Shown here: positions 10,098 to 63,055 of the stretch, one piece after another | How the letters are laid out: every line of letters starts with the position of its first letter | Numbering within the stretch: the first letter of the stretch is position 1 | Origin: Rhodoferax sp. AJA081-3 | GTDB lineage: Bacteria > Pseudomonadota > Gammaproteobacteria > Burkholderiales > Burkholderiaceae_C | Assembly: GCF_017798165.1 (NCBI RefSeq) | Contig: NZ_CP059068.1 | Coordinates: 806,001 to 870,000 of the forward strand | DNA length: 64,000 nt | Direction: 5' to 3' | Program-made: the position numbers and the translations under genes | The notes under the pieces: generated by a model | What the model was told of the DNA's origin: nothing | The model's database searches: none | What the model saw: the letters and a program-made list of their open reading frames with translations, nothing else

Positions 10098-11090
10098 ATG
10101 CCTCCCCACACACCGTCAACCACGTTGTTCCTCGACCAGTCGGAAAGCCAGAAGCGCCAGTACATTGACGCAGAAACTGTATTCTTGGCGCTGGCCAAGG
10201 CAAAGAAGGCAGCAGCCGAAGTACGTGGCAGCATGCTGTGGCGGGAGTTGCGTGGCAAGCCGACACTGATCCGAACGTCCGCAAGCGGTGCGCAAAAGTC
10301 CTTGGGAGTGCGCAGCGCCGAGACAGAGGCCATCTACGCCAGTTTCATGGCACGCAAGCAGTCGGCCGAAGAGCGGCACAAAGCACTCAAGGCCCAATTG
10401 GCTACGCAGCAACGCCTAAACCGTGCACTGCGCGTGGGCCGCGTACCCAATGTCGTGGTCGGCGTGATCAATGCACTGGACAACATCGGCGTGCAGGACC
10501 ACTTCATGGTGGTTGGCACCCACGCCCTGTTTGCCTACGAGACTGCAGCAGGCGTGCGCATAACCGAGGAAGCCATGGCCACCCGCGATGTGGACATCCT
10601 GTTTGACACCCGCAAGCGCATTTCCTTCTTCACCGCGATGAAGAAGCTCGACAGTTCGCTGATCGGTGTCCTGCGCAAGGTGGACCCCAGCTTTGAAGTG
10701 GTGGAAGACCAGCTATACACCGCACGCAACCAGGACGGTTTTGAGGTCGACATCATCCGCCGCACGGCAAAAGACGCCGATCCGCACCCGCTGCGTATGA
10801 GCGATGAAGACGACGACTTCTGGGCCGTACAAGTCTCCATGGGCGAGAAGCTGCAATCGGCCCGTCGTATGGACCAGGTCGTAGTGGCGACGTCGGGCGA
10901 GATGGCGCTGATGCGTACCGTCCACCCGCTGGACTTTGCGCGCATCAAGCTGGGGCTGTCCAGGCAAGTCGGGCGCGACCCAAACAAGAGTGGCAAAGAC
11001 GCGCTGCAATCCCGTATCGTCACCGAACTGGTGAGCGAATACCTGCCGCACTTCTTGCCTGCCGAGGGAGAGGCACCGTTAGTCCAATAG
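10098..11090 (+). CDS. Nucleotidyltransferase-fold protein (NTP_transf_8 / GSU2403-like)
   Basis: About 330 residues. The N-terminal half is helical and Lys/Arg/Ala-rich; the C-terminal half contains VVGTHALFAYE and ATRDVDILFD, matching the GG/GS and D-x-D catalytic motifs of nucleotidyltransferase folds, plus EVDIIRR with a possible third acidic residue. I recognise it as the GSU2403-like family, whose biological role is unsettled; members can resemble abortive-infection or TA-type nucleotidyltransferases. The ATG at 10098 follows a striking dyad. The stop codon forms the first bases of a dispersed element. It seems to stand alone, without an obvious partner antitoxin. Confidence 0.75.
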   Translation: MPPHTPSTTLFLDQSESQKRQYIDAETVFLALAKAKKAAAEVRGSMLWRELRGKPTLIRTSASGAQKSLGVRSAETEAIYASFMARKQSAEERHKALKAQLATQQRLNRALRVGRVPNVVVGVINALDNIGVQDHFMVVGTHALFAYETAAGVRITEEAMATRDVDILFDTRKRISFFTAMKKLDSSLIGVLRKVDPSFEVVEDQLYTARNQDGFEVDIIRRTAKDADPHPLRMSDEDDDFWAVQVSMGEKLQSARRMDQVVVATSGEMALMRTVHPLDFARIKLGLSRQVGRDPNKSGKDALQSRIVTELVSEYLPHFLPAEGEAPLVQ

Positions 11091-11141
11091 GGCTATAGCC
11101 CCCGTCACTATTACGTTAGCAGCTATCAAATTTGCAGTAAC
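11090..11141 (+). repeat. Dispersed two-hairpin element, copy 1
   Basis: Starts at the last base of the preceding gene's TAG stop: GGGCTATAGCCCCCGT, then GCTATCAAATTTGCAGTA. The 5' dyad GGGCT/AGCCC and a partial 3' dyad GCTAT/AGTA are seen. Forward orientation, intergenic. Confidence 0.8.
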
Positions 11142-11156
11142 TACCCATACAACACC

Positions 11157-12509
11157 ATGCTCGACCTGCTGATCCACAACGCCACCCTGCCCGACGGCCG
11201 CACCAATATGTCTGTGGCGGTGCAAGCCGGCCGCATCACCGACGTAGCACCTAGCCTGATGGCGCCAGCCACGGAAACGATTGATGCCCAAGGCCTGCTG
11301 CTGAGCCCACCCTTCGTCGACGCCCATTTCCACATGGACGCCACGCTGAGCTACGGCCTGCCGCGCGTCAATGCCAGCGGCACGCTGCTCGAAGGCATTG
11401 CGTTGTGGGGCGAGCTCAAACCGCAGCTAACCCAGGAGGCACTCGTCGAGCGCGCCCTGGCTTACTGCGACTGGGCCGTGGCCAAGGGCCTGCTCGCCAT
11501 CCGCAGCCATGTGGATATCTGCGGAATTAGCCCCCAAGGGACTGCGTCCCGCCCCCCCACGGGGGTGCCCCATGGCTTGGGGCGGCCCGGCGCCATGGGT
11601 GGCCTGCTGGCTGTGGAGGCGCTGCTGGAGGTTAAACGCCGCGTCGCGCGGTATCTGGATCTGCAACTGGTCGCCTTCCCACAAGACGGCGTGTTACGCG
11701 ACCCCCAAGCCATGGACAAGCTGCAACGCGCGCTGGCCATGGGTGTGGACGTGGTCGGCGGTATCCCCCACTTCGAGCGGACCATGGCCGACGGCGCCTT
11801 GAGCGTCAAGCTGCTGTGCGAACTGGCTGCAGCGCAAGGCAAGCTGGTGGACATGCACTGCGACGAGTCCGACGACCCGCTGTCGCGCCACATCGAAACC
11901 CTGGCGTTTGAAACCCAGCGCCTGGGCCTGAACGGCCGCGTCACTGGCTCCCACTGCACATCCATGCACAGCATGGACAACTACTACGTGAGCAAGCTGC
12001 TGCCGCTGATCGCCGAGGCCGGTGTCAGCATCATCAGCAACCCACTGATCAACATCACGCTACAAGGCCGCCACGACACCTACCCCAAGCGCCGCGGCAT
12101 GACCCGCGTGCCCGAGTTGCTGGCCCACGGCGTGACCGTTGCCTTCGGCCACGACTGCGTGATGGACCCCTGGTATTCGCTGGGCAGCGCCGACATGCTG
12201 GAAGTGGCCAGCATGGGCCTGCACGTAGCCCAGATGACCAGCCAGGCTGCCATGCGCCAGTGTTTTGAGGCCGTGACCACCAGCGCGGCGAAGATCCTGC
12301 ATCTGGAAGGCTATGGGATTGAGAAGGGGTGCAACGCGGACTTTGTGTTGCTGCAGGCGCAGGACCCGATTGAGGCGATACGGCTAAGGGCTACGCGGTT
12401 GCAGGTGTTCAGGCGCGGGAAGCGGGTGGCTCAGACGCCGGCGGCTATCGCGACGTTGAACTTGCCGGGGCGTCCACAGACGACCTCGTTGATGCATTCT
12501 GGGTGCTAG
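11157..12509 (+). CDS. codA: Cytosine deaminase-like amidohydrolase with in-frame insertion
   Basis: A 450-residue TIM-barrel metallohydrolase close to E. coli CodA, which deaminates cytosine to uracil. Metal ligands and substrate motifs are present: VDAHFHMDATL, HCDESDDPLSR, SHCTSMHS, QGRHDTYPKRRG and AFGHDCVMDPWY. Between RSHVDIC and the helix EALLEVK, about 25 residues rich in Gly/Pro (roughly 124-148) have no counterpart in CodA as I recall it; the DNA there is a chain of G+C-rich hairpins. The TAG stop lies inside a copy of the dispersed element. Its product would feed upp nearby. The insertion is on a loop and the enzyme may still be active (inference). Confidence 0.88.
   Translation: MLDLLIHNATLPDGRTNMSVAVQAGRITDVAPSLMAPATETIDAQGLLLSPPFVDAHFHMDATLSYGLPRVNASGTLLEGIALWGELKPQLTQEALVERALAYCDWAVAKGLLAIRSHVDICGISPQGTASRPPTGVPHGLGRPGAMGGLLAVEALLEVKRRVARYLDLQLVAFPQDGVLRDPQAMDKLQRALAMGVDVVGGIPHFERTMADGALSVKLLCELAAAQGKLVDMHCDESDDPLSRHIETLAFETQRLGLNGRVTGSHCTSMHSMDNYYVSKLLPLIAEAGVSIISNPLINITLQGRHDTYPKRRGMTRVPELLAHGVTVAFGHDCVMDPWYSLGSADMLEVASMGLHVAQMTSQAAMRQCFEAVTTSAAKILHLEGYGIEKGCNADFVLLQAQDPIEAIRLRATRLQVFRRGKRVAQTPAAIATLNLPGRPQTTSLMHSGC
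11527..11599 (+). repeat. G+C-rich multi-hairpin segment inside codA
   Basis: In-frame segment with stacked dyads: GGGACtgcGTCCC (11538-11550), CCCCC-cac-GGGGG, and GCCCC...GGGGC. It encodes about 25 Gly/Pro/Arg-rich residues at a place where the deaminase family has a short loop. It differs from the TAGCCCCCGT element. Insertion is inferred from memory of the E. coli CodA sequence. Confidence 0.6.
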
Positions 12510-12553
12510 CCCCCGTGGATATTGCGTAAGCCGCTACAAAAAATGCAGCAAAT
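12501..12553 (+). repeat. Dispersed two-hairpin element, copy 2
   Basis: GGGTGCTAGCCCCCGT with GCTACAAAAAATGCAGCAA downstream. The codA TAG stop lies inside it (12507-12509), so it may have altered the protein's C-terminus. Forward orientation. Confidence 0.8.
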
Positions 12554-12582
12554 ACCGTCGCCACAGTGCAGAGTTCTTAAGT

Positions 12583-12762: not shown

Positions 12763-12800
12763 TGGCCATCAACATTCTTCCTGCTACGAGAGAAGAAAAT
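12762..12800 (+). pseudogene. 5' stump of a RelE/ParE-like toxin gene
   Basis: ATG at 12762 overlaps the antitoxin stop. The first residues MAINILPATREEN resemble the start of RelE/ParE toxins, after which the frame enters unrelated sequence opposing the 3' end of yhaV. The rest of the toxin is absent. Very short, so identity is a suggestion only. Confidence 0.35.
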
Positions 12801-12820
12801 TTGACCGTCACACGGACTGC

Positions 12821-13628: not shown

Positions 13629-13663
13629 GGTGCACTCCGGTTCAAAAAAGAGATTTTTCACAT

Positions 13664-16049: not shown

Positions 16050-16457
16050 CGGGCGGCTGGCGAGTACCGCCTTAATGTGGTTGCCCTCTGGGTCTGCAAC
16101 CAGCCCAAAGCACTTTCACCATGGACGTAGCTTAAAAGCAATGGGTTCAAGCCGAATTTTGCTTCATCGCCACAACGAAACCACCCGAGGAGGGTGGCGT
16201 GGCTTACGGGCGCAGGCCGCACTTGCGGTTGCCACTAGAGCTGGCGTGCCTGGCGGGTGTTAACGCAATCGCGCAGGTTAACCAGCCCTGTCCACCCGCG
16301 ACGCGAGCCGGAGAACGTGAGCCACGGCGCCCGCCGTACGCGAACCACAAACAGGCTTTAGTTTCAAGAGAAACGGGCCGCTAGCCCTCGTCCAATATGC
16401 GTGAATCGCTACTGATTCAATAGCAACCAACAGACGACTTAGCAAGCACCAAACCCC
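16050..16457. other. 408-bp spacer without a recognisable gene
   Basis: No frame with coding character was found on either strand. It contains a small hairpin CCACCC-GAGGA-GGGTGG (16181-16197), without a T tract, and copy 3 of the dispersed element at its right end. It could include the terminator of the zinc-ribbon gene, but nothing definite is seen. Confidence 0.5.
16375..16427 (+). repeat. Dispersed two-hairpin element, copy 3
   Basis: GGGCCGCTAGCCCTCGT then GCTACTGATTCAATAGCAAC; the 3' dyad GCTA(C/T)...ATAGC is clear. One mismatch (T for C) in the core. Intergenic, forward orientation. Confidence 0.78.
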
Positions 16458-16934: not shown

Positions 16935-17000
16935 AATGGGATTGTGCAAAATGCGTGGAATTAAGGAATGGGCGCTATTTTCGCCGCAGTTCAGTCCCCT

Positions 17001-25442: not shown

Positions 25443-25460
25443 GGGCTTTGAACGATTTTG

Positions 25461-25510
25461 GGCTCTAGCCCCCGCAGAATCTTACTACGGCGCTATCAAC
25501 TTTGTAGTGG
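25461..25510 (+). repeat. Dispersed two-hairpin element, copy 4
   Basis: GGGCTCTAGCCCCCGC then GCTATCAACTTTGTAGT, between bdhA and the converging UPF0158 gene. The 5' dyad GGGCT/AGCCC is perfect. Confidence 0.8.
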
Positions 25511-25547
25511 ATGTGGCTCTGGTAGATTCTGCAGCCACTATTGGCCG

Positions 25548-27527: not shown

Positions 27528-28061
27528 CTACGGCAGCAACTGCGCCACCCGGTTCAGATCATCCAGCGTATCAATGTCGGTCACGGCACCGGCATCGGTC
27601 ACTACAAATTCCATAGCATGGAAAGCAGAAAGTACGGGGGCTGCACCCTGATTTCCCTTAAGAGACTCCAGCCCTGCACGGCACTGCGCCGAGAAACCTA
27701 CAGGGTGGCCACGCTGGCCTTCGAATGTAGGGAACACAGCCGCGTGGTCGGCCAACGCCTGCGCCATCGCGCGCAAGGTGTCTGGCTGGATGAGCGGCAG
27801 ATCACCGGGCAGAATGAGCCACCCCGCAGCATCACGCGTAGCGCGCACGGCCGCTGCAATGGAATCCCCCATGCCGAGGTGCGGCCCGTTTTCCACATGG
27901 AAAGGCAAGCCACTGGCACGCACTGCATCCACCGTGTGTTGCAGCACGGTTTTGCCATGCAGCAAGGCCTGCAGCTTGGAGCCTGTGCCGCCTGATGCGA
28001 TGAAACGCCGGCCCCGGCCGCTGGCCAGGATCAGGACGGTGGGTGGGTGGTGGCCAGGCAA
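27528..28061 (-). CDS. MocA/MobA-like molybdenum cofactor nucleotidyltransferase
   Basis: A 177-residue GT-A-fold nucleotidyltransferase, probably transferring CMP or GMP to molybdopterin for the hydroxylase encoded upstream in the operon. The signature ILASGRGRRF...SKLQALL is a variant of LAAGxSxRMG-xxK. GWLILPGDLPLI holds the metal-binding Asp, and GHPVGFS matches the conserved GHP motif. The likely start is TTG at 28061, overlapping xdhC by 31 nt; no better codon is in place. Context with XdhC and a molybdo-hydroxylase favours the MocA (CTP) type. Confidence 0.82.
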   Translation of the reverse strand: MPGHHPPTVLILASGRGRRFIASGGTGSKLQALLHGKTVLQHTVDAVRASGLPFHVENGPHLGMGDSIAAAVRATRDAAGWLILPGDLPLIQPDTLRAMAQALADHAAVFPTFEGQRGHPVGFSAQCRAGLESLKGNQGAAPVLSAFHAMEFVVTDAGAVTDIDTLDDLNRVAQLLP

Positions 28062-29061: not shown

Positions 29062-31332
29062 TCAGGCCAGCTTGAACGGCAGGCTGCGGGGCGTCTTGCC
29101 GGTCAGCTTGGCAATGGCATTGCCAAAGGCCGGGGCCAGTGGCGGCAGGCCAGGTTCACCCATGCCAGTGGGCGGCTCGGCGCTGGGGACAATGTGCACG
29201 GCGATCTTGGGCATGTCGGTGATACGGGCCACCACGTAGTCGCCAAAATTGCTTTGCTCAACCAAACCATCCTTGAAGGTAATGGCAGACCCAGGCAGGC
29301 AGGTGCCCAAGCCCATCAGCGCGGCGCCCTGCACTTGCGCTTCAATGGTCTTGGGGTTGACGGCCAGGTTGCAGTGCACGGCAGCAGTGACCGCATGCAG
29401 CTTGGGCACGCCCTTGGTGACCGATGCCTCGGCCACATAGGCCACCACGGTGTCAAACGACTCGTGTACGGCCACGCCCCAGGCCTGGCCCTTGGGCAGC
29501 TTGCGTTTGCCATAACCCGATTGCTCCACCGCCAGCATCAGTGCGGCTTTGTGGCGCGGGTGCTTGTCACCCATCAGCTTCATGCGGTAAGCCACCGGGT
29601 CCTGGTTGGTGGCGCGGGCAATTTCATCGACCAGGGTTTCCATGACGTAGGCGGTGTGGGTGGAGCCCACGCTGCGCCACCACAGCACCGGCACGTTGAC
29701 CTTGGGGTGGTGCACCGACAGGCGCATGGGCACGTCATACGGCTCGCGCATGCCTTCGACGATGGTCGCGTCCACGCCGTCCTTGATCATCATGCCTGCA
29801 AAGGGTGTGCCCTCCACAATCGACTGGCCGACGATGACATGGTCCCAAGCCAGCACCTTGCCCTTGGCGTCAAAACCGATCTCGGCACGGTGCACGTGCA
29901 TGGGGCGGTAGTAGCCGCCTTTGATGTCGTCTTCGCGGCTCCACAGCACACGAATCGGTGCACTGACTCCGGCTGCCATGGCAACCTTGGCCACAGTGCA
30001 GGCCTCAACCACATAGTCGGCCGTGGGCACGGCGCGGCGGCCAAAACCGCCACCGGCCATCTGCACATTCACCTTGACGTTTTGTGGTGGCAGGCCCAGC
30101 ACCTTGGCTGCTGCCATGCCGTCAAAGCCGGGCATTTGTGTGCCCAGGTAGATGGCGGCCTTGGCATCTGCACCACTGCCGGTGACATGCACGGTGCAGT
30201 TCAGCGGCTCCATGGGCGCATGCGCCAGGTAGGGGAAGGTGAACTCGGCGCTGATCTTCTTGGGCGCCTTGGCCAGCGGCGCCATGTCGGCCTGGTATTT
30301 CAGCGCGCCGGTCTTCTTGGCCAGGGCCTTGTAGCTGGCCAGTTGGGCGGTGCTGTCGACTTTCTCCACGCCAGAGGTGTCCCACTCCAGCTTCAGCGCA
30401 TCACGCGCCTGCTTGGCGGCCCAGTAGCCTTGGGCGATCACGGCCACGCCCTCCCCGCCCCGGTCGGTGGGCATGCGTAACACGGCTTTGACACCGGGTA
30501 CCGCCTTGGCGGCCGCGTCGTCCAGCGACTTGATCTTGGCGCCAAACACTGCCGGGTGGGCCACCACGGCGGTCAGCATGCCGGGCAGTTGCACATCGAT
30601 ACCGAAGTTTTGCTGGCCGCTGGACTTGGCTTTGCCGTCCAGCCGCGGTGTGGCTTTGCCGATGATGCGGAAGTTCTTAGGGTCCTTCAGCGCCACTTTG
30701 TCGGGCACGGGCATCTTCATGGCGGCATCCGACAGATCGCCATAACTGATGGATTTGCCTGCGGGGCCCAGGACCATGCCGTTTTCGGTGCGCAGCGCGC
30801 TGGCATCCACACCCCACTGCGCAGCCGCAGCGGCCACCAGCATGGCGCGGGCGCGGGCACCCAGTTCGCGGTACTGCATGAAGGAGCGTTTGATGGAGCC
30901 CGAGCCACCTGTCAGGTGCATGCCAAAGGCAGGGTCCACGTAGGCGGCGTTGGCATCGCCGTGTTCGGCGGTGACCTTGCTCCAGTCGGCGTCCAGCTCC
31001 TCGGCCAGGCACATGGGCAAGGCGGTCCACACGCCCTGGCCAAACTCCAGGCGGTTGATGGCGACGGTGACCGTGCCGTCCTTTGCAATCCGCACGAAGG
31101 CAGAGGGTTGCTCGAAGGGTTTCAGGCCAGCCGGTGCCGCGGCTTGTGCGCCCGCCACCAAGGGGTAGGCACCCAGTGCAAAGCCAGAGGCCGCGCCCAT
31201 CTTCAAAAAGCTGCGCCGGGCCAGCCCTTCAGTTGCTATTGATTTAGAAGCGCCTTGAGACCGTTCCACGCGGGCTAGAAGCCCTTTTGGCAGTTGGTCC
31301 ATCAGTTCGGGGGATGCGGAGTCGAAATGCAT
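29062..31332 (-). CDS. Molybdopterin-binding hydroxylase large subunit (IorB-like), Tat-exported
   Basis: A 756-residue xanthine-oxidase-family catalytic subunit of the isoquinoline 1-oxidoreductase/aldehyde dehydrogenase type. A twin-arginine signal (RRSFLKMGAASGFALG, R39-R40) indicates folded export with the 2Fe-2S subunit. Moco-binding stretches include GGGFGRRAVPTADYVVEA and GEPGLPPLAPAFGNA near the end, with the conserved Glu. Residues about 17-35, before the Tat motif, are encoded by a dispersed element, giving an unusually long n-region. The ATG at 31332 follows GAGGAAA. The substrate (aldehyde or N-heterocycle) cannot be fixed. Confidence 0.88.
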   Translation of the reverse strand: MHFDSASPELMDQLPKGLLARVERSQGASKSIATEGLARRSFLKMGAASGFALGAYPLVAGAQAAAPAGLKPFEQPSAFVRIAKDGTVTVAINRLEFGQGVWTALPMCLAEELDADWSKVTAEHGDANAAYVDPAFGMHLTGGSGSIKRSFMQYRELGARARAMLVAAAAAQWGVDASALRTENGMVLGPAGKSISYGDLSDAAMKMPVPDKVALKDPKNFRIIGKATPRLDGKAKSSGQQNFGIDVQLPGMLTAVVAHPAVFGAKIKSLDDAAAKAVPGVKAVLRMPTDRGGEGVAVIAQGYWAAKQARDALKLEWDTSGVEKVDSTAQLASYKALAKKTGALKYQADMAPLAKAPKKISAEFTFPYLAHAPMEPLNCTVHVTGSGADAKAAIYLGTQMPGFDGMAAAKVLGLPPQNVKVNVQMAGGGFGRRAVPTADYVVEACTVAKVAMAAGVSAPIRVLWSREDDIKGGYYRPMHVHRAEIGFDAKGKVLAWDHVIVGQSIVEGTPFAGMMIKDGVDATIVEGMREPYDVPMRLSVHHPKVNVPVLWWRSVGSTHTAYVMETLVDEIARATNQDPVAYRMKLMGDKHPRHKAALMLAVEQSGYGKRKLPKGQAWGVAVHESFDTVVAYVAEASVTKGVPKLHAVTAAVHCNLAVNPKTIEAQVQGAALMGLGTCLPGSAITFKDGLVEQSNFGDYVVARITDMPKIAVHIVPSAEPPTGMGEPGLPPLAPAFGNAIAKLTGKTPRSLPFKLA
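31232..31284 (-). repeat. Dispersed element, copy 5, in frame in the hydroxylase large subunit
   Basis: Minus strand: GGGCTTCTAGCCCGCGT...GCTTCTAAATCAATAGCAAC. It encodes about 18 residues before the Tat arginines. The frame is CTA-GCC-CGC-GTG, the same as in pgeF. Confidence 0.75.
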
Positions 31333-35454: not shown

Positions 35455-35477
35455 AAAAAAACCCGCCAAAGCGGGTT
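35455..35477 (-). terminator. Rho-independent terminator after phaB
   Basis: On the minus strand AACCCGC-TTTG-GCGGGTT is followed by TTTTT. A 7-bp G/C-rich stem, 4-nt loop and T tract lie 40 nt past the phaB stop, ending the phaCAB operon. Confidence 0.88.
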
Positions 35478-35516
35478 CTTTTGACTCGATATTGCGACTT
35501 CTGGTCGCAAAGCAAC

Positions 35517-36254: not shown

Positions 36255-36278
36255 GTTCACTCCTCTTTGGTTTTACTT

Positions 36279-36327
36279 GCTACAACATTAGTAGCTGTAA
36301 CCCCAGTATTTACGGGGGCTAACAGCC
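36279..36327 (-). repeat. Dispersed two-hairpin element, copy 6 (phaA-phaB spacer)
   Basis: Minus strand: GGCTGTTAGCCCCCGT...CAGCTACTAATGTTGTAGC. It occupies most of the 76-bp space between phaA and phaB, inside the transcript, where its hairpins could affect mRNA processing (inference). Confidence 0.8.
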
Positions 36328-36330
36328 AAT

Positions 36331-37509
36331 TTATCTCTCAATCGTCAGGGCCACGCCCATGCCGCCACCGATACACAGGCTGGCAATGCCCTTCTTGGCA
36401 TTGCGGCGCTGCATTTCATGCAGCAGCGTGACCAGAATACGGCAACCGGACGCACCAATGGGGTGGCCTATGGCAATGGCGCCACCGTTGACGTTGACCT
36501 TGCTGGTGTCCCAGCCCATTTCGTTATTCACCGCGCAGGCCTGGGCGGCAAAGGCTTCGTTGATTTCCAGCAGGTCCAGGTCCTGTGGCTTCCAGCCGGC
36601 ACGCTCCAGCGCCTTGCGCGATGCGGACACCGGGCCCATACCCATCAGCGCAGGGTCCAGGCCACTGGTGGCAAAGCTGGCGATACGGCCCATGGGGGTC
36701 AGGCCCAGAGCTGCCGCCTTCTTGGCGGTCATCACCATCACCGCGGCGGCGCCGTCGTTGATGCCCGAGGCATTGCCTGCCGTCACGCCACCCGCCTTGT
36801 CGAAGGCGGGACGCAGGCCAGCTAGCGCGTCGGCGTTGGACTTGCGGTTGATGAACTCATCGGCTGCAAACACAATCGGGTCGCCCTTCTTCTGCGCAAT
36901 GCTGAAAGGCACGATTTCGTCCACAAACTTGCCGGCGTCTTGTGCGGCAGCGGCCTTTTGTTGGCTGGCCAGCGCCAGTGCGTCCTGCATGTCGCGGCTG
37001 ATGCTGTAGGCCTTGGCCACGTTTTCGGCGGTAATGCCCATGTGGTACTGGTTGTAGACATCCCACAGGCCGTCCACAATCATGGAGTCGGTCATCTTCC
37101 AGTCGCCCATGCGCTGGCCGTCACGGCTGCCCAGCAACACATGGGGTGCGGCGCTCATGTTTTCCTGGCCACCAGCGATCACAACTTCGCTGTCGCCATA
37201 GGCAATGGCTTGCGCAGCCAGCATCACAGCCTTCAGGCCGGAGCCGCATACGGCATTGATGGTCAGGCCGGGCGTTTCTTTGGCCAGGCCACTCTTGATG
37301 ACGGTCTGGCGGGCGGGGTTTTGGCCCGAGCCGGCGGTCAGCACCTGGCCCAGGATGACTTCATTGACCTGCTCAGCAGACAGGCCTGTACGGGCCAGCA
37401 AAGCCTTGATGACGGCGGCGCCCAGTTCGGGTGCCGGAGTCTTGGCCAGCGTGCCGCCAAATTTGCCGACGGCGGTGCGGGCGGCTGAAACGATGACGAT
37501 GTCTTCCAT
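36331..37509 (-). CDS. phaA: Acetyl-CoA acetyltransferase (beta-ketothiolase)
   Basis: A 392-residue thiolase condensing two acetyl-CoA to acetoacetyl-CoA. The nucleophile is C88 (INAVCGSGLKA); GHPIGASG has the catalytic His, and CIGGGMGVAL the second Cys. The ATG at 37509 starts the fold (MEDIVIVSAARTAVG). Second gene of phaCAB, 36 nt after phaC. It could also act on longer ketoacyl-CoA (BktB-like), but its place in the operon supports PhaA. Confidence 0.95.
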   Translation of the reverse strand: MEDIVIVSAARTAVGKFGGTLAKTPAPELGAAVIKALLARTGLSAEQVNEVILGQVLTAGSGQNPARQTVIKSGLAKETPGLTINAVCGSGLKAVMLAAQAIAYGDSEVVIAGGQENMSAAPHVLLGSRDGQRMGDWKMTDSMIVDGLWDVYNQYHMGITAENVAKAYSISRDMQDALALASQQKAAAAQDAGKFVDEIVPFSIAQKKGDPIVFAADEFINRKSNADALAGLRPAFDKAGGVTAGNASGINDGAAAVMVMTAKKAAALGLTPMGRIASFATSGLDPALMGMGPVSASRKALERAGWKPQDLDLLEINEAFAAQACAVNNEMGWDTSKVNVNGGAIAIGHPIGASGCRILVTLLHEMQRRNAKKGIASLCIGGGMGVALTIER

Positions 37510-39365: not shown

Positions 39366-39647
39366 ATGTACATCATTCCTATCGCCTGGTTGTATGTCGC
39401 TGTCATGATGGCAGTGGCAGAAGCCACCAACACCAACGGCTCCATCCTCGGTGCCATTGTGACCTTTGTTCTTTACGGTTTGTTACCAATTGGGCTCATT
39501 CTGTATTTCATGGGAGCGCCCGCGCGCAAGCGCGCCATCCGGGCCCGTGACGCTGCAGAGCTGGAAGCTGCGAAGGCATCAGTCCAACCAGATACAGGCA
39601 GCCTGCCGACCACTGATACGGTCACGCCGGTGGGAAAAGAAACGTAG
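39366..39647 (+). CDS. Small two-helix membrane protein
   Basis: A 93-residue protein. Two hydrophobic segments (about 2-20 and 27-50) are followed by a charged region RKRAIRARDAAELEAAK and a Thr/Pro-rich tail. No known family is recognised. Its last 69 bases lie on the strand opposite the 3' end of pgeF, so the two genes overlap tail to tail. Ribosome site is weak. Function unknown. Confidence 0.65.
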   Translation: MYIIPIAWLYVAVMMAVAEATNTNGSILGAIVTFVLYGLLPIGLILYFMGAPARKRAIRARDAAELEAAKASVQPDTGSLPTTDTVTPVGKET

Positions 39648-40376
39648 CGGCTGACCCACGGTGCACCACGGCGCACTGCCGTCGTTGCCAAACACCTGGG
39701 TGATGCCCAGAGCCGCCAACCGCTGCCGCGCCAGTGCGGGCAAATCCGCCAGCCACTTGCCACCGGCAAGCGGCTTGAAACACGCTGCCGCCTGCGCATG
39801 GGTCTGCGCAAACGCTGCAACCACATCGGCCCCTACTTCAAAGGCATCCGGCCCTATGCAAGGGCCGAGCCACGCTATCAACTCAATAGCACTATTGTTA
39901 GATACAACGGGGGCTAGAGGCTTAAAAGACTTATAAGCATTTTCCAGAATGCCCACGCCATCCACCCCGGCCAGCCCACGCCATCCGGCATGCACCGCGG
40001 CCACCTGGCGGCCTTGCACATCACACAACAACACGGGCAAACAATCGGCCACCATGATGGTGCAGGCCAGGCCACGTTTGCGCGTGTAGGCACCATCTGC
40101 CGAGGCGCCATCGGGCGTGTCCTGCGCCAGGGCCAGCATGTCGGTGCCATGCACCTGGTTCAAAAACACGGGTTTGGCCCCCAAGGCTTCTTGCAGCAGC
40201 CCACGGTTGTGTGCAACGTGGGCCGTGTCATCACCTACGTGTGAACCCAGGTTCAGACTGTCATACGGCGCGGCGGACACCCCGCCCGTGCGTGTGGTGC
40301 AAAGCGCCCGCACATGGGCTGGTGCGGGCCAGTCGGGTTGTATCCAGTCGGTGCCAACAGAGGGGGAGCGTGTCAT
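39579..40376 (-). CDS. pgeF: PgeF/YfiH family laccase-domain protein with element-encoded insert
   Basis: A 265-residue protein of the family shown to act as purine nucleoside phosphorylase/adenosine deaminase and assigned to peptidoglycan editing. Zinc ligands H76 (NQVHGTD), C112 (VADCLPVL) and H129 (AVHAGWRG) are present, with AWLGPCIGPDAFEVG downstream. Residues about 151-168, just before that strand, are encoded by a dispersed element and have no counterpart in the family as I recall it. The C-terminus (AACIWLD) is the family's usual end, so the overlap with the small membrane protein gene is real. Confidence 0.9.
   Translation of the reverse strand: MTRSPSVGTDWIQPDWPAPAHVRALCTTRTGGVSAAPYDSLNLGSHVGDDTAHVAHNRGLLQEALGAKPVFLNQVHGTDMLALAQDTPDGASADGAYTRKRGLACTIMVADCLPVLLCDVQGRQVAAVHAGWRGLAGVDGVGILENAYKSFKPLAPVVSNNSAIELIAWLGPCIGPDAFEVGADVVAAFAQTHAQAAACFKPLAGGKWLADLPALARQRLAALGITQVFGNDGSAPWCTVGQPLRFFSHRRDRISGRQAACIWLD
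39874..39922 (-). repeat. Dispersed element, copy 7, in frame in pgeF
   Basis: Minus strand: AGCCTCTAGCCCCCGT...GTGCTATTGAGTTGATAGC, with a clear 3' dyad GCTAT...ATAGC. It is read as CTA-GCC-CCC-GTT and encodes about 17 residues with no stop. Confidence 0.82.
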
Positions 40377-43438: not shown

Positions 43439-44131
43439 ATGGCGTCCAAGCCCGCCCCCAGAGACAACCCATTGACCGACGCCGTGTTGCAACTGGTCTT
43501 GCAGGTGCCAGGCAGCACCGAGCCCGTGCGCGCCCACCCGGCCGAGCGGGCCCATGCCATTGCGCGCAAGGCGGCCCGCACGGCCAGTGTGGTGTCGGGT
43601 TCGCTAGCCCTGCCACCAGGCATCTTGGGATGGCTGACGGTGATGCCCGAGCTGGTGGGAGTCTGGAAACTGCAGGCGCAAATGGTGTCTGATATTGCCA
43701 GCGTGTATGGCAAGAGCAAGACCCTGGGGCGCGAGCAGATGTTGTACTGCCTGTTCCGCCACATGTCGGCCCAGGTGTTGCGCGACGTGGTGGTGCGGGT
43801 GGGTGAGCGTTTTGTGGTCAAAAAAGCCTCGCTCAAGGTCTTGCAGGCCGTGGCACAACAACTGGGTTTACAGGTGTCCAAAGCCGTCATCAGCAAAGGG
43901 GCCTCGCGCTTTGTGCCGCTGGTGGGTGCGGTGGGTGCCGGCGCCTATGCCTACTTTGACACCCTGCAGGTTGCCAAAACGGCGGTGGAGCTGTTCGAGC
44001 GCGAAACCGTGGTTGATGCCGAAGGCGAAGTCTGGGTGGATGTGGACGTGCATACCCACGATGGTCTGCAAGAGAAGAAGACCACTGCAAGCACCCCCCA
44101 GACCAAGGCAACGAGCAAAAAAGGCCTATAG
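43439..44131 (+). CDS. EcsC-family protein
   Basis: A 230-residue protein. The middle has Ala/Gly-rich hydrophobic helices (LALPPGILGWLTVMPELVGV and RFVPLVGAVGAGAYAYFDTL) typical of EcsC-like proteins, which associate with ABC transporter function in Bacillus but are poorly understood in proteobacteria. The tail is Lys/Thr-rich. The TAG stop is supplied by the dispersed element copy 8. Tightly follows the Nudix gene. Confidence 0.7.
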   Translation: MASKPAPRDNPLTDAVLQLVLQVPGSTEPVRAHPAERAHAIARKAARTASVVSGSLALPPGILGWLTVMPELVGVWKLQAQMVSDIASVYGKSKTLGREQMLYCLFRHMSAQVLRDVVVRVGERFVVKKASLKVLQAVAQQLGLQVSKAVISKGASRFVPLVGAVGAGAYAYFDTLQVAKTAVELFERETVVDAEGEVWVDVDVHTHDGLQEKKTTASTPQTKATSKKGL

Positions 44132-44165
44132 CCCCCGTAAAATCTTATTGAGTAGCTATAAAAAC
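44123..44165 (+). repeat. Dispersed two-hairpin element, copy 8
   Basis: GGCCTATAGCCCCCGT...AGTAGCTATAAAAAC. The EcsC-family stop codon (44129-44131) lies inside the core. Short 3' end. Forward orientation. Confidence 0.78.
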
Positions 44166-44178
44166 AGGAGCATTTGCC

Positions 44179-55439: not shown

Positions 55440-56159
55440 CTAAGTCGTCTGGAGCCGCGCCTGCAGCACCGCTTGCGCCAGCGCAAAGTCCTGCGGGTAG
55501 GTGACCTTGAAGTTTTGCGCACTGCCCTCGACCAACAGCGGTGCTTTGCCGACAAACTCCAGCGCGCTGGCTTCATCGGTCACGGCATCACCCGCCACCA
55601 GCAAGGCCTGTTGCAGCTCCGCGATCCGAAACATCTGCGGGGTCTGGGCCAGCCACTTGTCGATGCGCTCCACGGTCTCGGCCACCCTGCCACCCACTTC
55701 ACGCTTCAGCGTGTCGGGCAGCTTCAACGCCAACAGGCCACCGACTGCGTCGCCCTGGCAGGCGTCGATCAGTGTATTGATCTGCTCGGGGGTTATCAGG
55801 CAACGGGCCGCGTCATGCACTAGCACCCAGTCATCCGGGTTTGCACCGCGGTCCACCAAGGCAGTCAAACCGTTAAAAACGCTTCCAGCCCTCGTGGAAC
55901 CTCCACATGGCGCTACCAAAACAGTAGCGCCCTGGTTGTCAAAGAAGGTATCACCACTGGACACCACGACCAAGACTCCGCTGAGGCGTGACACCGCTGC
56001 GAAAGCGGACAGCGTGTGTAACACCATGGGTTGGCCCGCCACCGGTTGGTACTGCTTGGGGCCGTCGGAGCCAGCACGGGAGCCGGTGCCGGCACAGGGG
56101 ATCAGCGCCCATAGGCGGGCGGAGGGAGCGGTAAGGGATGCGGTGACCGGAGCTGTCAT
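55440..56159 (-). CDS. ispD: 2-C-methyl-D-erythritol 4-phosphate cytidylyltransferase
   Basis: A 239-residue cytidylyltransferase of the MEP pathway. The CTP-binding signature PCAGTGSRAGSDGPKQYQPV is followed by VLVHDAARCLI and DEASALEF, with catalytic lysines in KQY and near KVTYPQDFALA. Divergent from mfd across about 130 bp. No transcript to ispF is possible without reading through the opposing DUF2059 gene. Confidence 0.95.
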   Translation of the reverse strand: MTAPVTASLTAPSARLWALIPCAGTGSRAGSDGPKQYQPVAGQPMVLHTLSAFAAVSRLSGVLVVVSSGDTFFDNQGATVLVAPCGGSTRAGSVFNGLTALVDRGANPDDWVLVHDAARCLITPEQINTLIDACQGDAVGGLLALKLPDTLKREVGGRVAETVERIDKWLAQTPQMFRIAELQQALLVAGDAVTDEASALEFVGKAPLLVEGSAQNFKVTYPQDFALAQAVLQARLQTT

Positions 56160-56293: not shown

Positions 56294-59200
56294 ATGGATT
56301 TACCCAAACTAACGGTCGGCAAACGCTTCACCCTGCCCCGCCCCGCTGGCTCTGCCGACGCGATGTTGCTGGCCCGCCTGGGCGAGCGCGAAAAGGCCGC
56401 AGGCAAGCCCATGACCGTGGTCACGGCCAATGCCAATGACGCCCAACGCCTGCTGGATGAGATCAGCTTCTTTGCCCCCACGCTGCGCTGCGCGCTGTTC
56501 CCCGACTGGGAAACCCTGCCCTACGACACCTTCTCGCCGCATCAGGACCTGATCAGCGAACGGCTGGCGACCCTTTGGCGCATCAGCCAGCGCGACAAGG
56601 ACACCGGCGCCGATGTCGTCATCGTGCCCGCCACCACGGCCTTGTACCGCCTGGCGCCACCCAGCTTTCTGGCCGGCTATACCTTTGAATTCAAGGTCAA
56701 GCAAAAGCTCAACGAGGCCAAGCTCAAGGCCCAGCTCACGCTGGCGGGCTACAGCCATGTGACCCAGGTGGTCAGCCCCGGGGAATATGCGGTGCGCGGC
56801 GGCCTGATCGACCTGTTCCCCATGGGATCACTTGTTCCTTTCCGTGTGGATCTGTTTGACGACGAAATCGATTCCATCCGCACCTTTGACCCCGACAGCC
56901 AGCGCAGCCTGTACCCGGTGCCCGAAGTGCGCCTGCTGCCCGGGCGTGAGTTCCCGATGGACGACGACGCGCGTGCGCGTTTTCGCAGCCGCTGGCGCGA
57001 GCTGCTGGAGGGGGACCCCACCAAGAGCCGTATCTACAAGGACATGGGCGCCGGCGTGGCCACGGCCGGTATCGAGTACTACCTGCCGCTCTTCTTTGAA
57101 GAAACGGCCACCGTTTTTGACTATCTGGGGCCGGACGCCACCGTGGTGCTGCACGGCGACCTGGAGCCAGCCTTCCAGCGCTTCTGGCAGGACACCAAGG
57201 ACCGCTACCGCCTGGTACAGGGCGACCCCGAGCGCCCCGCGCTGCCACCCGAGAGCCTGTTCCTGGGCACTGAGCAGTTTTATGCGCGGGCCAATGGCTA
57301 CGCGCAGCTTGCTATCAAATCCGCAGCGCAACCTGTAGATTTAACGGGGGCTACAGCCCAGATTGGCAATGAGGCACCGGCCTCACCCTATACAGAGCTG
57401 GACACCCTGCCCCCCATGGCGGCCGAACGCGGCAGCGAAGACCCGCTGGCCCGCCTGAAGGCCCACGCACGCAACACCCAGCACCGCATCCTGGTGTTGG
57501 CAGAGAGTGATGGCCGCCGCGAAAGCTTGTTGGACTTCTTGCGCGCCAGTGGCATCAACCCGCCGTCGTTTGATTCCCTGCTGGAGTTCCAGACCAGCGA
57601 CGAGAAATTCGGCATCGCCACCGCCGCGCTGAGCGTAGGTTTCAGCTGGCTGGAATACGGCATTGACCTGGTGACAGAGACCGAGCTCTTCGCCAGCGCC
57701 CCCACCACCCGCCGCCGCAAAAAGCAGGAACAGGTCAGCGATGTCGAAGCGCTGATCAAGGACCTGAGTGAACTGAACGTGGGCGACCCGGTCGTGCACT
57801 CCAGCCACGGCATCGGGCGTTACCGCGGTCTGATCAACCTGGACCTGGGCAACAAGCTGGCCAACGGCGAGCCGGAGATGCAGGAGTTTCTGCACCTGGA
57901 ATATGCCGACAAAGCCACGCTGTATGTGCCGGTCAGCCAGTTGCAACTGATCAGTCGTTACACCGGTGTCAGTGCCGACGAAGCCCCCTTGCACAAGCTG
58001 GGCAGCGGCCAGTGGGAAAAAGCCAAGCGCCGCGCCGCCGAGCAAGTGCGCGACTCGGCCGCTGAGTTGCTGAACATCTACGCCCGCCGCGCCGCACGCG
58101 AAGGCCACGCTTTCCGCTACTCGGCCAACGACTACGAGACCTTTGCCAACGACTTTGGCTTTGAAGAAACCGCCGACCAGAAGGCCGCCATCCACTGCGT
58201 GATCCAGGACATGGTCAGCCCCCGCCCCATGGACCGCCTGGTCTGCGGCGACGTGGGTTTTGGCAAGACCGAGGTGGCGCTGCGCGCCGCGTTCATCGCT
58301 GTGACCGGCGGCAAGCAGGTGGCGATTCTTGCGCCGACCACGCTGTTGGCCGAGCAGCATTTCCAGACCATCTCCGACCGTTTCTCCAAATGGCCGGTCA
58401 AGGTGGCGGAGATGAGCCGCTTTCGCTCTACCAAAGAGACCAACCTGGCGCTGAAGGGCGTGGCCGATGGCACGGTGGACATTGTGGTGGGCACGCACAA
58501 GCTGCTGTCGCAAGACACGCACTTCAAGAACCTGGGCCTCTTGATCATCGACGAGGAGCACCGCTTTGGCGTGCGCCACAAGGAGCAGATGAAGGCGCTG
58601 CGCGCCGAGGTCGATGTGTTGACGCTGACCGCCACGCCCATTCCCCGCACCATGGGCATGGCGCTGGAAGGCCTGCGCGATTTAAGCGTGATTGCCACCG
58701 CGCCGCAGCGCCGCCTGGCCATCAAGACCTTTGTGCGCACTGAAGGCAACGGTGTGATCCGCGAGGCGGTGTTGCGCGAACTGAAACGCGGCGGCCAGAT
58801 CTACTTCTTGCACAACGAGGTGGAGACCATAGAAAACCGCCGCGCCAAGCTGGAAGAGCTGCTGCCCGAGGCCCGCATCGCCGTCGCCCACGGCCAGATG
58901 CCGGAGCGCGAGCTGGAGCGCGTGATGCGCGACTTCATCGCCCAACGCTACAACCTGTTGTTGTGCTCCACCATCATCGAGACCGGCATCGACGTGCCCA
59001 CCGCCAACACGATTGTGATGAGCCGCGCCGACAAGTTCGGCCTGGCGCAGTTGCACCAGCTGCGCGGCCGCGTGGGCCGTAGCCATCACCAAGCCTATGC
59101 GTATCTGATGGTGCCCGATATTGAAGGCCTGACCAAACAAGCCACCCAGCGCCTGGACGCCATTCAGGCCATGGAAGAGCTGGGCAGTGGTTTCTATTTG

Positions 59201-59842
59201 GCCATGCACGACCTGGAGATTCGCGGTGCTGGCGAGGTGCTGGGCGAAAACCAGAGCGGCAACATGCTGGAAGTGGGATTTCAGCTCTACAACGAGATGC
59301 TGAGCGAGGCCGTGCGCTGCCTGAAGGCCGGCATCGAGCCCGACCTGCTGAGCCCGCTGAATGTCACCACCGACATCAATCTGCACGCCCCAGCGCTGTT
59401 GCCCGACGACTACTGCGGCGATGTACACCTGCGCCTATCGTTCTACAAAAAGCTGGCCACCGCCAAAACCGCCGACCAGGTGGACACTCTGCTGGAAGAA
59501 ATCGTGGACCGCTTCGGCAAACTGCCACCGCAAGCCCAGACCTTGATCGACGTGCACCGCCTGCGCGTGCTGGCCAAGCCCTACGGCGTGCTGAAGGTAG
59601 ACGCCGCGCCCGGCATCATCAGCATCACGTTCCAGAAAAACCCGCCAATCGACCCGATGAAGATCATCCATCTGATCCAGAAGAACAAACACATCAAGCT
59701 GGCGGGGAATGAGAAGCTGCGTATCGAGCGAGAGTTGCCTGAAGCCAAAGACCGGGCGCAGATGGTGCGGGATATTTTGAAGTCGTTGGGGCAGCCGGTG
59801 GTGGAGGCGGAGGCGGTGGCTACTGCTGCGGTTGCAAAGTAA
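56294..59842 (+). CDS. mfd: Transcription-repair coupling factor with element-encoded insert
   Basis: An 1182-residue ATP-dependent translocase that removes stalled RNA polymerase and recruits UvrA. Order: UvrB-homology region, RNAP-interacting domain (VGDPVVHSSHGIGRYRGL), RecG-like translocase with Walker A (CGDVGFGKTE), DEEH box and LTATPIPRTMG, then the C-terminal UvrA-masking domain. Residues about 340-356 in the N-terminal part come from a reversed dispersed element, read without stops, placed in a linker before the SEDPLARLKAH block. It is unlikely to harm function (inference). Confidence 0.96.
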   Translation: MDLPKLTVGKRFTLPRPAGSADAMLLARLGEREKAAGKPMTVVTANANDAQRLLDEISFFAPTLRCALFPDWETLPYDTFSPHQDLISERLATLWRISQRDKDTGADVVIVPATTALYRLAPPSFLAGYTFEFKVKQKLNEAKLKAQLTLAGYSHVTQVVSPGEYAVRGGLIDLFPMGSLVPFRVDLFDDEIDSIRTFDPDSQRSLYPVPEVRLLPGREFPMDDDARARFRSRWRELLEGDPTKSRIYKDMGAGVATAGIEYYLPLFFEETATVFDYLGPDATVVLHGDLEPAFQRFWQDTKDRYRLVQGDPERPALPPESLFLGTEQFYARANGYAQLAIKSAAQPVDLTGATAQIGNEAPASPYTELDTLPPMAAERGSEDPLARLKAHARNTQHRILVLAESDGRRESLLDFLRASGINPPSFDSLLEFQTSDEKFGIATAALSVGFSWLEYGIDLVTETELFASAPTTRRRKKQEQVSDVEALIKDLSELNVGDPVVHSSHGIGRYRGLINLDLGNKLANGEPEMQEFLHLEYADKATLYVPVSQLQLISRYTGVSADEAPLHKLGSGQWEKAKRRAAEQVRDSAAELLNIYARRAAREGHAFRYSANDYETFANDFGFEETADQKAAIHCVIQDMVSPRPMDRLVCGDVGFGKTEVALRAAFIAVTGGKQVAILAPTTLLAEQHFQTISDRFSKWPVKVAEMSRFRSTKETNLALKGVADGTVDIVVGTHKLLSQDTHFKNLGLLIIDEEHRFGVRHKEQMKALRAEVDVLTLTATPIPRTMGMALEGLRDLSVIATAPQRRLAIKTFVRTEGNGVIREAVLRELKRGGQIYFLHNEVETIENRRAKLEELLPEARIAVAHGQMPERELERVMRDFIAQRYNLLLCSTIIETGIDVPTANTIVMSRADKFGLAQLHQLRGRVGRSHHQAYAYLMVPDIEGLTKQATQRLDAIQAMEELGSGFYLAMHDLEIRGAGEVLGENQSGNMLEVGFQLYNEMLSEAVRCLKAGIEPDLLSPLNVTTDINLHAPALLPDDYCGDVHLRLSFYKKLATAKTADQVDTLLEEIVDRFGKLPPQAQTLIDVHRLRVLAKPYGVLKVDAAPGIISITFQKNPPIDPMKIIHLIQKNKHIKLAGNEKLRIERELPEAKDRAQMVRDILKSLGQPVVEAEAVATAAVAK
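57311..57360 (-). repeat. Dispersed element, copy 9, in frame inside mfd
   Basis: Minus strand of the element: GGGCTGTAGCCCCCGT...GCGGATTTGATAGC. It is antisense to mfd, which reads TTA-ACG-GGG-GCT across the core. About 17 residues are encoded. Confidence 0.82.
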
Positions 59843-60008
59843 CTGGGCAATCGCAGTTTGCTTCGCCCATCTATGGCGTGGGAGGCAGAGTTTGGATCGA
59901 AAAAACCGACCAACAACGAAGCAGACGCGTACGATAGGACAACATCAACAGTGATTGACTGAAATTGTCGATTCTCAGTATCCCCTTCGAGCACACAACA
60001 CAACTCAC
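59843..60008. other. Spacer between mfd and ATPase gene
   Basis: 166 bp with no gene seen. Base composition changes here from G+C-rich to A/T-richer, marking the left edge of the accessory patch. No terminator or repeat was found. Confidence 0.4.
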
Positions 60009-61256: not shown

Positions 61257-61508
61257 GCTTGATTCGCCAAAAGCAAATAGGGGCGACGCCTGTAATCACG
61301 CGGTCAATTCGCCCCGGCGATTGTCTCGTATGCGATTTGCATCCAAACCATGACCGTTGATATCGGCGCATCCAAACACGCGGGTATGACGCTGATTGTT
61401 GTTAGCTGAAGGGTCCTGAAATAGCCACTCCGTCCCCGCTGGACAACCGTGATCACCTAATTTACTGACACTTATATAATTGTTCATGTAATTATTTGGA
61501 GAACTGCC
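61257..61508. promoter_or_regulatory. Spacer upstream of first vapBC, with TATAAT and an inverted repeat
   Basis: TATAAT lies at 61475-61480 and overlaps the dyad ATAATT-(8)-AATTAT (about 61476-61495), just ahead of GGAGA and the antitoxin ATG. This fits a repressed TA promoter (inference). A 73-codon minus-strand frame here lacks support. Confidence 0.45.
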
Positions 61509-61763
61509 ATGTCCCAAGTCACCATCTACATGGACGAAGAAGCAATCACCAGAGCCAAGGCTTCCGCAGCTGCAGCCAAGCTGTCGCTCAGTGCGTGGAT
61601 ATCACAGCTGGTCAAGGAGCAAACCACCGCCTTGGACGCAAACGGCTATCCCTTGGGGTTTTTTGAAGAAATTGCCGCCCAAGCCAGCGCTTGGCAAAAC
61701 TTCCCGCTATCGCCATCGCTGCGTGCGGGTGACACGCCCGACCTGCCGCGCGAAGCCCTGTAG
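61509..61763 (+). CDS. vapB: VapB-type antitoxin
   Basis: An 84-residue protein. The N-terminal half has a ribbon-helix-helix-like pattern (SQVTIYMDEEAITRAKASA) and the C-terminal tail is acidic and Trp/Pro-containing, as expected for toxin-neutralising segments. It is followed 18 nt later by a PIN-domain toxin. Good Shine-Dalgarno sequence (GGAGA). Probable autorepressor. Confidence 0.82.
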   Translation: MSQVTIYMDEEAITRAKASAAAAKLSLSAWISQLVKEQTTALDANGYPLGFFEEIAAQASAWQNFPLSPSLRAGDTPDLPREAL

Positions 61764-61781
61764 TGCCTGGGAACACCTGAC

Positions 61782-62180
61782 GTGTTTGCCCTGGACACCA
61801 ACACCCTCATCTACTTCTTCAAGCAAGAGGGTCAAGTCGCTTCACACTTAAAAAGTATTCCGGCCAACCAAGTGTTTGTGCCCGCCGTGGTGTGGTTCGA
61901 GCTGGAGTACGGCGTACTGCGGTCCACCCGACCCGAGTTGCAGCGCCGCGGCATGGAGTCGGTACAGCGTGCGTACCAGATACTGAACTTTGACTCTGCC
62001 AGCGCAAAGTCAGCGGCAGTCATTAAACACACATTGGATGCGGCGGGGACGCCTATCGGAAATTCGGACCTGCTGATTGCCGCTACTGCAATGGCCCGCG
62101 ACCTCACGCTGGTCACCCGCAACACCCGGGAATTCGAGCGGGTGCCGGGTTTGCGGGTTGAAAACTGGTATGGCAATTAG
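61782..62180 (+). CDS. vapC: VapC-type PIN-domain ribonuclease toxin
   Basis: A 132-residue PIN protein. Acidic residues are intact: D5 in FALDTNTLIYFF, E in WFELEYGVL, D in GNSDLLIAA and the final D/E region around RNTREFERVPGL. It probably cleaves tRNA or rRNA. It begins at GTG 61782, in agreement with the first strand. Pairs with the upstream antitoxin; appears complete. Confidence 0.9.
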   Translation: MFALDTNTLIYFFKQEGQVASHLKSIPANQVFVPAVVWFELEYGVLRSTRPELQRRGMESVQRAYQILNFDSASAKSAAVIKHTLDAAGTPIGNSDLLIAATAMARDLTLVTRNTREFERVPGLRVENWYGN

Positions 62181-62247
62181 CCCTCGGTCCAAGGCATATG
62201 CCAAGGCATAGGCTAAAATCAAGCCTGCACTCCTGAGGAGGTTGACC

Positions 62248-62580
62248 ATGTCCACTTCAAACCACCACTCCACTCACCATGCTTCGGAAACAATAGCACC
62301 CTTTCCAGAAAATTCGGGGGCTAGGACCGTAAAACTCTTTAGGAATGGCGCAAACCAGGCGGTCCGCATCCCAAAGGAGTTCGAGTTACCCGGCACTGAC
62401 GCGGTGATGCGCCGAGAAGGCAACCGGCTGATTTTGGAGCTGGTTCCAGACAAACCCAAGAGGGGTACAGCGGCAGCCTTGGCCGCAGCGCTTATCAGCA
62501 TGAAGGACTGGTCTGTCGTCGATGAGCCGTTCCCCGATGCTGGCGAGGACTTGGCGCCGCTCGACGAAATTGACCTATGA
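62248..62580 (+). CDS. vapB: VapB/SpoVT-AbrB antitoxin with element-derived N-terminal extension
   Basis: A 110-residue antitoxin. The AbrB-fold core ARTVKLFRNGANQAVRIPKE begins at about residue 25, where VapB proteins usually start. The preceding residues, from about 14 on, come from a reversed dispersed element with no stop, so the element seems to have added a new N-terminus or the true start is later. AGGAGG precedes the ATG at 62248 by 9 nt. Its stop overlaps the toxin start by ATGA. Confidence 0.85.
   Translation: MSTSNHHSTHHASETIAPFPENSGARTVKLFRNGANQAVRIPKEFELPGTDAVMRREGNRLILELVPDKPKRGTAAALAAALISMKDWSVVDEPFPDAGEDLAPLDEIDL
62289..62338 (-). repeat. Dispersed element, copy 10, in frame at the 5' end of vapB
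   Basis: Minus strand: GGTCCTAGCCCCCGA...GGTGCTATTGTTTCC. It is antisense to the gene, which reads TCG-GGG-GCT over the core, the same frame as in mfd. Confidence 0.75.
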
Positions 62581-62996
62581 GCCTGTATTTGCTGGACACC
62601 AATATCGTGTCAGACATGATGCGCAATCCGCAGGGCCCCGCCGCCCGCCGCGCCATTGCGATCAGCCAATCTACGCCTGAGGCGCAATTTCAGACAAGCG
62701 TCATCGTGGACTGCGAACTGCTGTACGGCTTGGCACGCAGACCGCAAGAGCGCTTGCAAGCTGCCTATGAGCGAACCATGGCGACGCTAACCATTCTCCC
62801 GCTGGGCACCGAAGTGGCTCAAACCTACGCCAACATGCGCAACGCGGTGACGTCGATAGGCCAAGGCTTGGACGCCAATGACACGCTGATCGCTGCGCAC
62901 GCACTCACGCTCGACGCCACACTGGTCAGTGCCGATGCGGCCTTTACCCGCATTCCTGACCTCAAGCTGGAAAACTGGCTACAGGCAAAGCCTTAA
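62577..62996 (+). CDS. vapC: VapC-type PIN-domain ribonuclease toxin
   Basis: A 139-residue PIN-domain protein with conserved acidic residues: YLLDTNIVSDMM, CELLYGL, GLDANDTLIAAHAL and the final ADAAFTRI. FitB/VapC type. Co-translated with its AbrB-type antitoxin (ATGA overlap). The second VapBC module in 1.5 kb; the two toxins are not close copies. Confidence 0.92.
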   Translation: MSLYLLDTNIVSDMMRNPQGPAARRAIAISQSTPEAQFQTSVIVDCELLYGLARRPQERLQAAYERTMATLTILPLGTEVAQTYANMRNAVTSIGQGLDANDTLIAAHALTLDATLVSADAAFTRIPDLKLENWLQAKP

Positions 62997-63003
62997 GGCA
63001 AAT

Positions 63004-63055
63004 AGGCCTCCAGCCCCCGTACAGATTTCGTAAGCAGCTCCCAATTCAATAGCAC
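63004..63055 (+). repeat. Dispersed two-hairpin element, copy 11
   Basis: AGGCCTCCAGCCCCCGT...GCTCCCAATTCAATAGCAC, between the toxin gene and serB, ending 10 bp before the serB ATG. Core imperfect (CCAG for CTAG). Confidence 0.75.

Follow-up and report, generated by a model that had tools for sequence, protein, structure and literature searches.

A 59-bp repeat family of Rhodoferax sp. AJA081-3 as a tentative DNA recognition motif of Comamonadaceae

In a 64-kb stretch of Rhodoferax sp. AJA081-3 (contig NZ_CP059068.1, positions 806,001 to 870,000; the window), 13 full-length copies of a 59-bp motif were found, and the motif is conserved at synonymous positions in two coding genes, a pgeF-like gene and ispD. 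Synonymous conservation, strand neutrality, lineage-specific dialects and persistence together suggest that selection or drive acts on a signal at the DNA level. We tentatively favor reading it as a DNA recognition motif, spread genome-wide in Comamonadaceae and selected or driven, and not as a pair of RNA hairpins, with an uptake-like role as the leading candidate.

The window was searched with a model built from 12 copies, and all 13 matches had E <= 9e-15; the 13th, at 55875, scored 44.6 bits from outside the training set. The ungapped alignment of the 12 copies had 59 columns, 13 of them invariant. The original prediction had described 11 copies of a roughly 50-bp element. Every one of those 11 places holds a copy and the repeat is real, but two copies (27596-27654 on the minus strand and 55875-55933 on the plus strand) had been overlooked and the unit is 59 bp long: of 126 copies sampled from the window and 39 other stretches of the same genome (labeled G000), 117 were ungapped 59-mers, the other nine being indel-bearing, partial, or edge-cut matches. 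The copies share TAGCCCCCGT followed by GCTAT-n7-ATAGC, and the spacer between the two varies in sequence but not in length. The consensus reads AAATnGGCCTCTAGCCCCCGT, a variable stretch, and GCTATnaAaTtnaTAGCA, and weaker conservation reaches up to 13 bases upstream of the motif. The strict pattern GGGCTNNNNTAGCCCCCG had no match in the genome, being too rigid.

Outside the window, 57 copies in 19 20-kb stretches and 56 in 20 more gave 113 copies in 780 kb, which extrapolates to ~750 per 5.17-Mb genome; L035, which overlaps the window, was excluded from the 19-stretch count and from the placement sample. A contiguous 464 kb, scanned with a profile trained partly on copies inside it, held 59 copies, or ~660 per genome, compared with none in a third-order Markov control of the same length. 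Within these 464 kb, 59 matches scored at least 12 bits and 57 at least 30 bits, and this near-constant count indicates that decayed copies are nearly absent. The information content was ~51-58 bits per site. Short-patch conversion between copies is possible, but by eye, long identical runs between copies of the genome were few.

In the pgeF-like gene, third positions were compared only where the amino acid and the first two bases were the same. Across 19 species, 933 of 1237 third-position comparisons agreed within the motif (0.754), compared with 7228 of 15083 in the flanks (0.479), and the best of 186 flank windows reached 0.626; the value of 0.754 includes G077, G018, and G099 and becomes 0.815 without these three. 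In ispD, the motif was carried by 20 of 77 sequences. It overlies a conserved segment, CGGxTRAxSVxNG, and compared with solved IspD homologues nothing is inserted there. The conserved Arg codon was AGG or AGA in 14 of the 20 carriers versus two of the 57 noncarriers. Third positions of the carriers agreed at 0.604 in the motif versus 0.487 in the flanks (best flank window, 0.568), whereas the same columns in noncarriers showed no excess (0.447 versus 0.526 in the flanks). In the ispD products of L110 and L125, the CGG of most sequences is replaced by QAG or KAG.

Placement was analyzed with gene calls from our own simple caller. Although called genes made up 82% of the sequence, only 37 of the 126 sampled copies lay inside them; eight were at stretch edges and 81 in gaps, 49 of these between same-direction genes, 24 between convergent genes, and eight between divergent genes. 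A habit of touching stop codons had been noted originally and is borne out: in 38 of the 50 copies with a same-strand upstream gene, the stop codon ended at −33 to +14 of the first base of the copy, and at 12507 and 44129, a TAG within the copy is itself the predicted stop. Both orientations occur, as had also been stated (seven plus and six minus in the window). Copies inside genes were 17 sense and 20 antisense, those in same-direction gaps 26 sense versus 23 antisense, and the leading and lagging strands, assigned by an origin/terminus split from the GC skew of 40 stretches, carried 64 and 62. Since neither gene strand nor replichore strand is preferred, DNA rather than RNA appears to be recognized. 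A sense-strand bias among 46 gap copies (18 versus 8) was gone in the larger sample, and replication polarity was ruled out for the sample of 126.

The location of copies after stop codons would suit an RNA-level element, such as a terminator, an mRNA stabilizer, or a 3′ untranslated region structure, whereas the equal use of both strands would not, and we consider an element of this kind very unlikely. Of the two-dyad structure in the original prediction, only half is present, and a pair of conserved hairpins is not supported. RNAalifold retained three pairs of the distal dyad with no compensatory changes, and among 117 copies (the 126 sampled minus the nine that were not ungapped 59-mers), the distal pairs 41-51 and 42-50 were slightly rarer than in shuffles (z −1.9 and −1.3) and pair 8-15 of the GGGC/GCCC dyad formed in only 28%. 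The covariance support proposed as a check failed to appear: no covarying helix was found in scans of 68, 117, and 107 copies, including the copies of this genome. Folding of the 117 copies was weak on average (mean z −0.87). At site 36274, folding was strong in 12 orthologues (mean z −3.1), which favors an RNA role, so a local hairpin function is possible there. The window had no Rfam match at the gathering threshold. At E <= 1, two weak matches, rsmX- and istR-like, both lay away from the copies; the rsmX-like one, at 35456-35565 on the minus strand, scored 32 bits versus a gathering score of 56.

The association with Comamonadaceae made in the original prediction was borne out by named loci and by a survey of the window's family with a broader profile, in which 99 of 250 genomes had matches, as did 66 of 141 sampled genera. 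The model R1 matched in 18 of 41 genomes; of 25 genus genomes, 10 had at least 135 copies, seven had 1-20, and eight had none. R1 is tuned to its own dialect, so low counts elsewhere may conceal other dialects, and per-genome counts that reach 22 in the family survey or 135 in the genus survey are lower bounds, not totals. In G363, the genome of L110 and a metagenome-assembled genome labeled Polaromonas, the conserved spacer reads GCGTATTTAcTGCCTaAg; this dialect differs from that of G000, and dialect differences were seen by eye in other genera. Under the G363 profile, the spacer of the ispD copy scored +16.3 in L110 and +14.8 in L125, compared with −12 to −25 in five other ispD copies, and the whole L110 copy scored 54.4 versus 49.1 under the G000 profile. 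For the lineage examined, the spacer of this insertion-free ispD copy conforms to the local dialect. One island-like, low-GC stretch of 49.6 kb in G363 (G363:C1 27524-77095) had no copies, compared with 58 in 280 kb overall; by eye, it carries what we take to be methylase-, large adhesin-, and transposition-like genes. ComEC was found in 22 of the 25 genus genomes, copy-rich and copy-poor alike, and failed as a discriminator of copy-rich genomes.

Orthologous sites were occupied often, not always. Twenty stretches from relatives, picked by similarity to the window, held 30 matches at sites that are occupied in the window too (a partial 14-bit match in L208 was excluded). Site 36274 was occupied in 12 of 19 species, the window's species counted; G018 and G077 have short gaps without a copy there, and a right-end remnant seems, by eye, to survive in G067 and G022. 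The original prediction was to be abandoned if covariation was absent and relatives always carried the sequence at the same places. The outcome is mixed: covariation is absent, occupancy is frequent but not universal, and one junction, mfd/serB, is insertion-like. Upstream of serB-like genes, at the site of the window copy at 63000, 15 of 58 loci in relatives had a copy whose first base lies 58 to 67 bases from the start codon, and the other 43 scored below 0. Where mfd and serB are adjacent, occupied junctions measured 67-72 bp from stop to start in L062, L063, L070, and L071 and 96 bp in L125, whereas nine empty ones overlapped by 4 bp and others measured 3 to 53 bp. The junction space is mostly taken up by the motif, and an occupied junction looks like an insertion of ~70 bp. 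In the window, ~3 kb separate these two genes (59842-63066), which are neighbors in several relatives, and the small genes between them at 62407-62580 and 62577-62996 are, by their look, presumably a VapB/VapC-type pair.

Inside proteins, the Mfd copy was associated with ~16 extra residues versus some relatives and none versus L073, and the ThiL copy with 11 extra residues; in RarA and NadE the gain is 0 to 3. Both modes, insertion at a junction and a copy in place as in ispD, seem to exist. In L117, L124, L085, and L105, from other genera, different repeat-like peptides, of the HPSPLPEGEG and RPELVEG types, occupy this linker of Mfd.

The main rival holds that the motif is a non-autonomous mobile repeat resembling repetitive extragenic palindromic (REP) elements, perhaps spread by a single-copy Y1 (RAYT-like) transposase, inserted long ago mostly at gene ends and kept since. 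The ~70 bp gained at the occupied mfd/serB junction, the overrepresentation of copies in gaps and between convergent genes (24 convergent and eight divergent of 81), and the near absence of decayed copies argue for it, as do Y1 flanks. The original prediction had proposed mapping copies against transposase genes, and in 19 copy-rich genomes (of which G352 appears identical to G363), a copy adjoined the Y1 gene in eight of 38 flanks, two upstream and six downstream; in G363, copies stand on both sides. In G000, 89 copies outside genes over 723 genes give ~0.12 per gap, so enrichment at Y1 flanks is mild at most, and it may reflect shared ancestry. Against this rival, ispD, RarA, and NadE copies lack a 20-residue insertion, synonymous positions are conserved in genes, and a Y1 relative occurs, mostly singly, in 237 of 250 family genomes, nearly universal regardless of copy number, compared with motif matches in 99. 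Another palindrome surrounds the one Y1 gene of this genome (L001), as seen by eye: the inverted sequence that brackets it at 1380-1480 and 2140-2330, GGGGTCAGATTCCAAT plus its complement, differs from the motif. Overall, the mobile-repeat explanation seems to us plausible, if somewhat doubtful.

Under the favored recognition reading, a cell component would read the motif as double-stranded DNA, and selection or drive would maintain it. The component might act in the biased uptake of own DNA during natural transformation, like the DNA uptake sequence (DUS) of Neisseriaceae and the uptake signal sequence (USS) of Pasteurellaceae. Copies would then gain through being taken up and recombined, so that sites would stay, accumulate where tolerated, and track a changing receptor. 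Insertion may still give rise to new copies at junctions. In our analysis, such an uptake-sequence-like function is the leading guess, followed closely by the REP-like repeat, with a protein binding site in third place. That third option, the site of a chromosome-organizing or regulatory protein coevolving with its sites, would fit the conserved boxes with fixed spacing, the strand neutrality, the synonymous conservation, and the lineage dialects. However, ~51-58 bits per site is very much for one protein, and 15 of 25 genus genomes had 0-20 matches, though R1 could miss dialects other than its own; we regard it as improbable. Verminephrobacter is a genus that we take to belong to Comamonadaceae. 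A published study describes it as transformable, and its authors inferred a possible sequence specificity (PMC4212676).

Several observations weigh against the recognition reading. Copy spacing was slightly even in G000 (coefficient of variation 0.79, P about 0.04) versus clustered in G363 (1.45; random, 0.92 with P 0.36, once a large gap is cut out). The best 150 copies favored the leading strand (88/150, P 0.04), the two longest stretches of G000 without a copy (29.6 and 25.4 kb) had ordinary-looking genes, some of them core metabolic by eye, and ComEC occurs whether relatives are copy-rich or copy-poor. The whole ispD copy of L125 scored 47.2 under the G000 profile versus 43.7 under that of G363. 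The insertion-like junction and the residues added in Mfd carriers and ThiL belong here too, and the absence of intermediate scores fits copying better than stepwise mutation. Finally, known uptake cores are far shorter than this motif with its 59 bp and ~51 bits.

DUS and USS cores are 9-12 bp long. One study gives 9-11 (PMC4212676). These sequences also raise DNA uptake, have a minor-pilin receptor, and are depleted in foreign DNA; here, copies are absent from the island-like stretch of G363, but the copy-free stretches of G000 have ordinary genes. Like the motif, DUS and USS occur on both strands, in genes and gaps, and in lineage dialects, and their copy number (hundreds to thousands per genome) is matched by the extrapolated ~660-750; they differ in core length from the 59 bp conserved here, and the motif also has insertion signs at one junction. 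REP elements and REPINs with RAYT (TnpA-REP) resemble it in high copy number, location at gene ends and in convergent gaps, and a RAYT-like gene in the genome. REP is described as a 20-40 bp palindrome with a GTAG or CGTC tag (PMC3733652). The motif, in contrast, has no covarying palindrome and no GTAG/CGTC end tag, lies in genes in 37 of 126 sampled copies, and is only weakly linked to the RAYT gene. Rickettsia palindromic elements also have copies inside open reading frames; unlike them, some of the copies described here lengthen the protein little or not at all, and one overlies a conserved motif of an enzyme. Miniature inverted-repeat transposable elements have terminal inverted repeats and a target duplication; the consensus lacks a terminal inverted repeat. 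The original prediction had called the two-dyad structure and the contact with stop codons under-described, and no published description of the family was found in the open-access literature searched.

If cells read the motif, a large, common bacterial family would possess a conserved recognition signal to which codon and protein evolution must accommodate. A stronger version, to which we give a rather low probability, is a third, independent self-DNA marking system with a long uptake motif and genus dialects across Comamonadaceae, overriding codon choice and even conserved residues of the isoprenoid enzyme encoded by ispD (CGG to QAG or KAG in L110 and L125). Were it a true uptake mark, it would be a third case beside those of Neisseriaceae and Pasteurellaceae and make dialect evolution testable. 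If REP-like, it would be an unusual repeat, one that stays at orthologous sites and limits the evolution of coding sequence over long times. Annotators should be aware that the motif can supply stop codons and linkers in these genomes. The copies and their host genes are listed in Table 1, where the names pgeF/yfiH, mfd, and serB are our assumptions.

Table 1. Copies of the 59-bp motif in the window and genes that host them
Feature	Position	Strand	Context
Copy	11085..11143	+	Between two same-strand genes, overlapped by the upstream stop
Copy	12496..12554	+	Own TAG (at 12507) is the predicted stop of gene 11157-12509
Copy	16371..16429	+	Intergenic
Copy	25455..25513	+	Between convergent genes
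Copy	27596..27654	-	Overlooked originally; site also occupied in G067 and G003
Copy	31230..31288	-	Close to where gene 29062-31332(-) is called to start, perhaps a miscall; also occupied in G067 and G003
Copy	36274..36332	-	Gene 36331-37509 stops on one side, gene 35517-36254 starts on the other
Copy	39869..39927	-	In frame within the pgeF/yfiH-like gene 39579-40280
Copy	44118..44176	+	Own TAG (at 44129) is the predicted stop of gene 43439-44131
Copy	55875..55933	+	Overlooked originally; antisense within ispD, over the CGGxTRAxSVxNG motif
Copy	57306..57364	-	Antisense within mfd, open variable linker
Copy	62276..62334	-	Intergenic
Copy	63000..63058	+	Directly 5′ of the serB-like gene
pgeF/yfiH-like gene	39579..40280	-	Host of a copy
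ispD	55440..56159	-	Host of an in-place copy
mfd	56294..59842	+	Host of a copy

Two other repeats were observed in the window. Positions 14001-15737 hold five 54-nt direct repeats, the last three 210 nt apart, which suggests a protein with repeated units. At 6278-8392, two 253-nt segments are 84% alike and apparently represent paralogous genes that neighbor each other.

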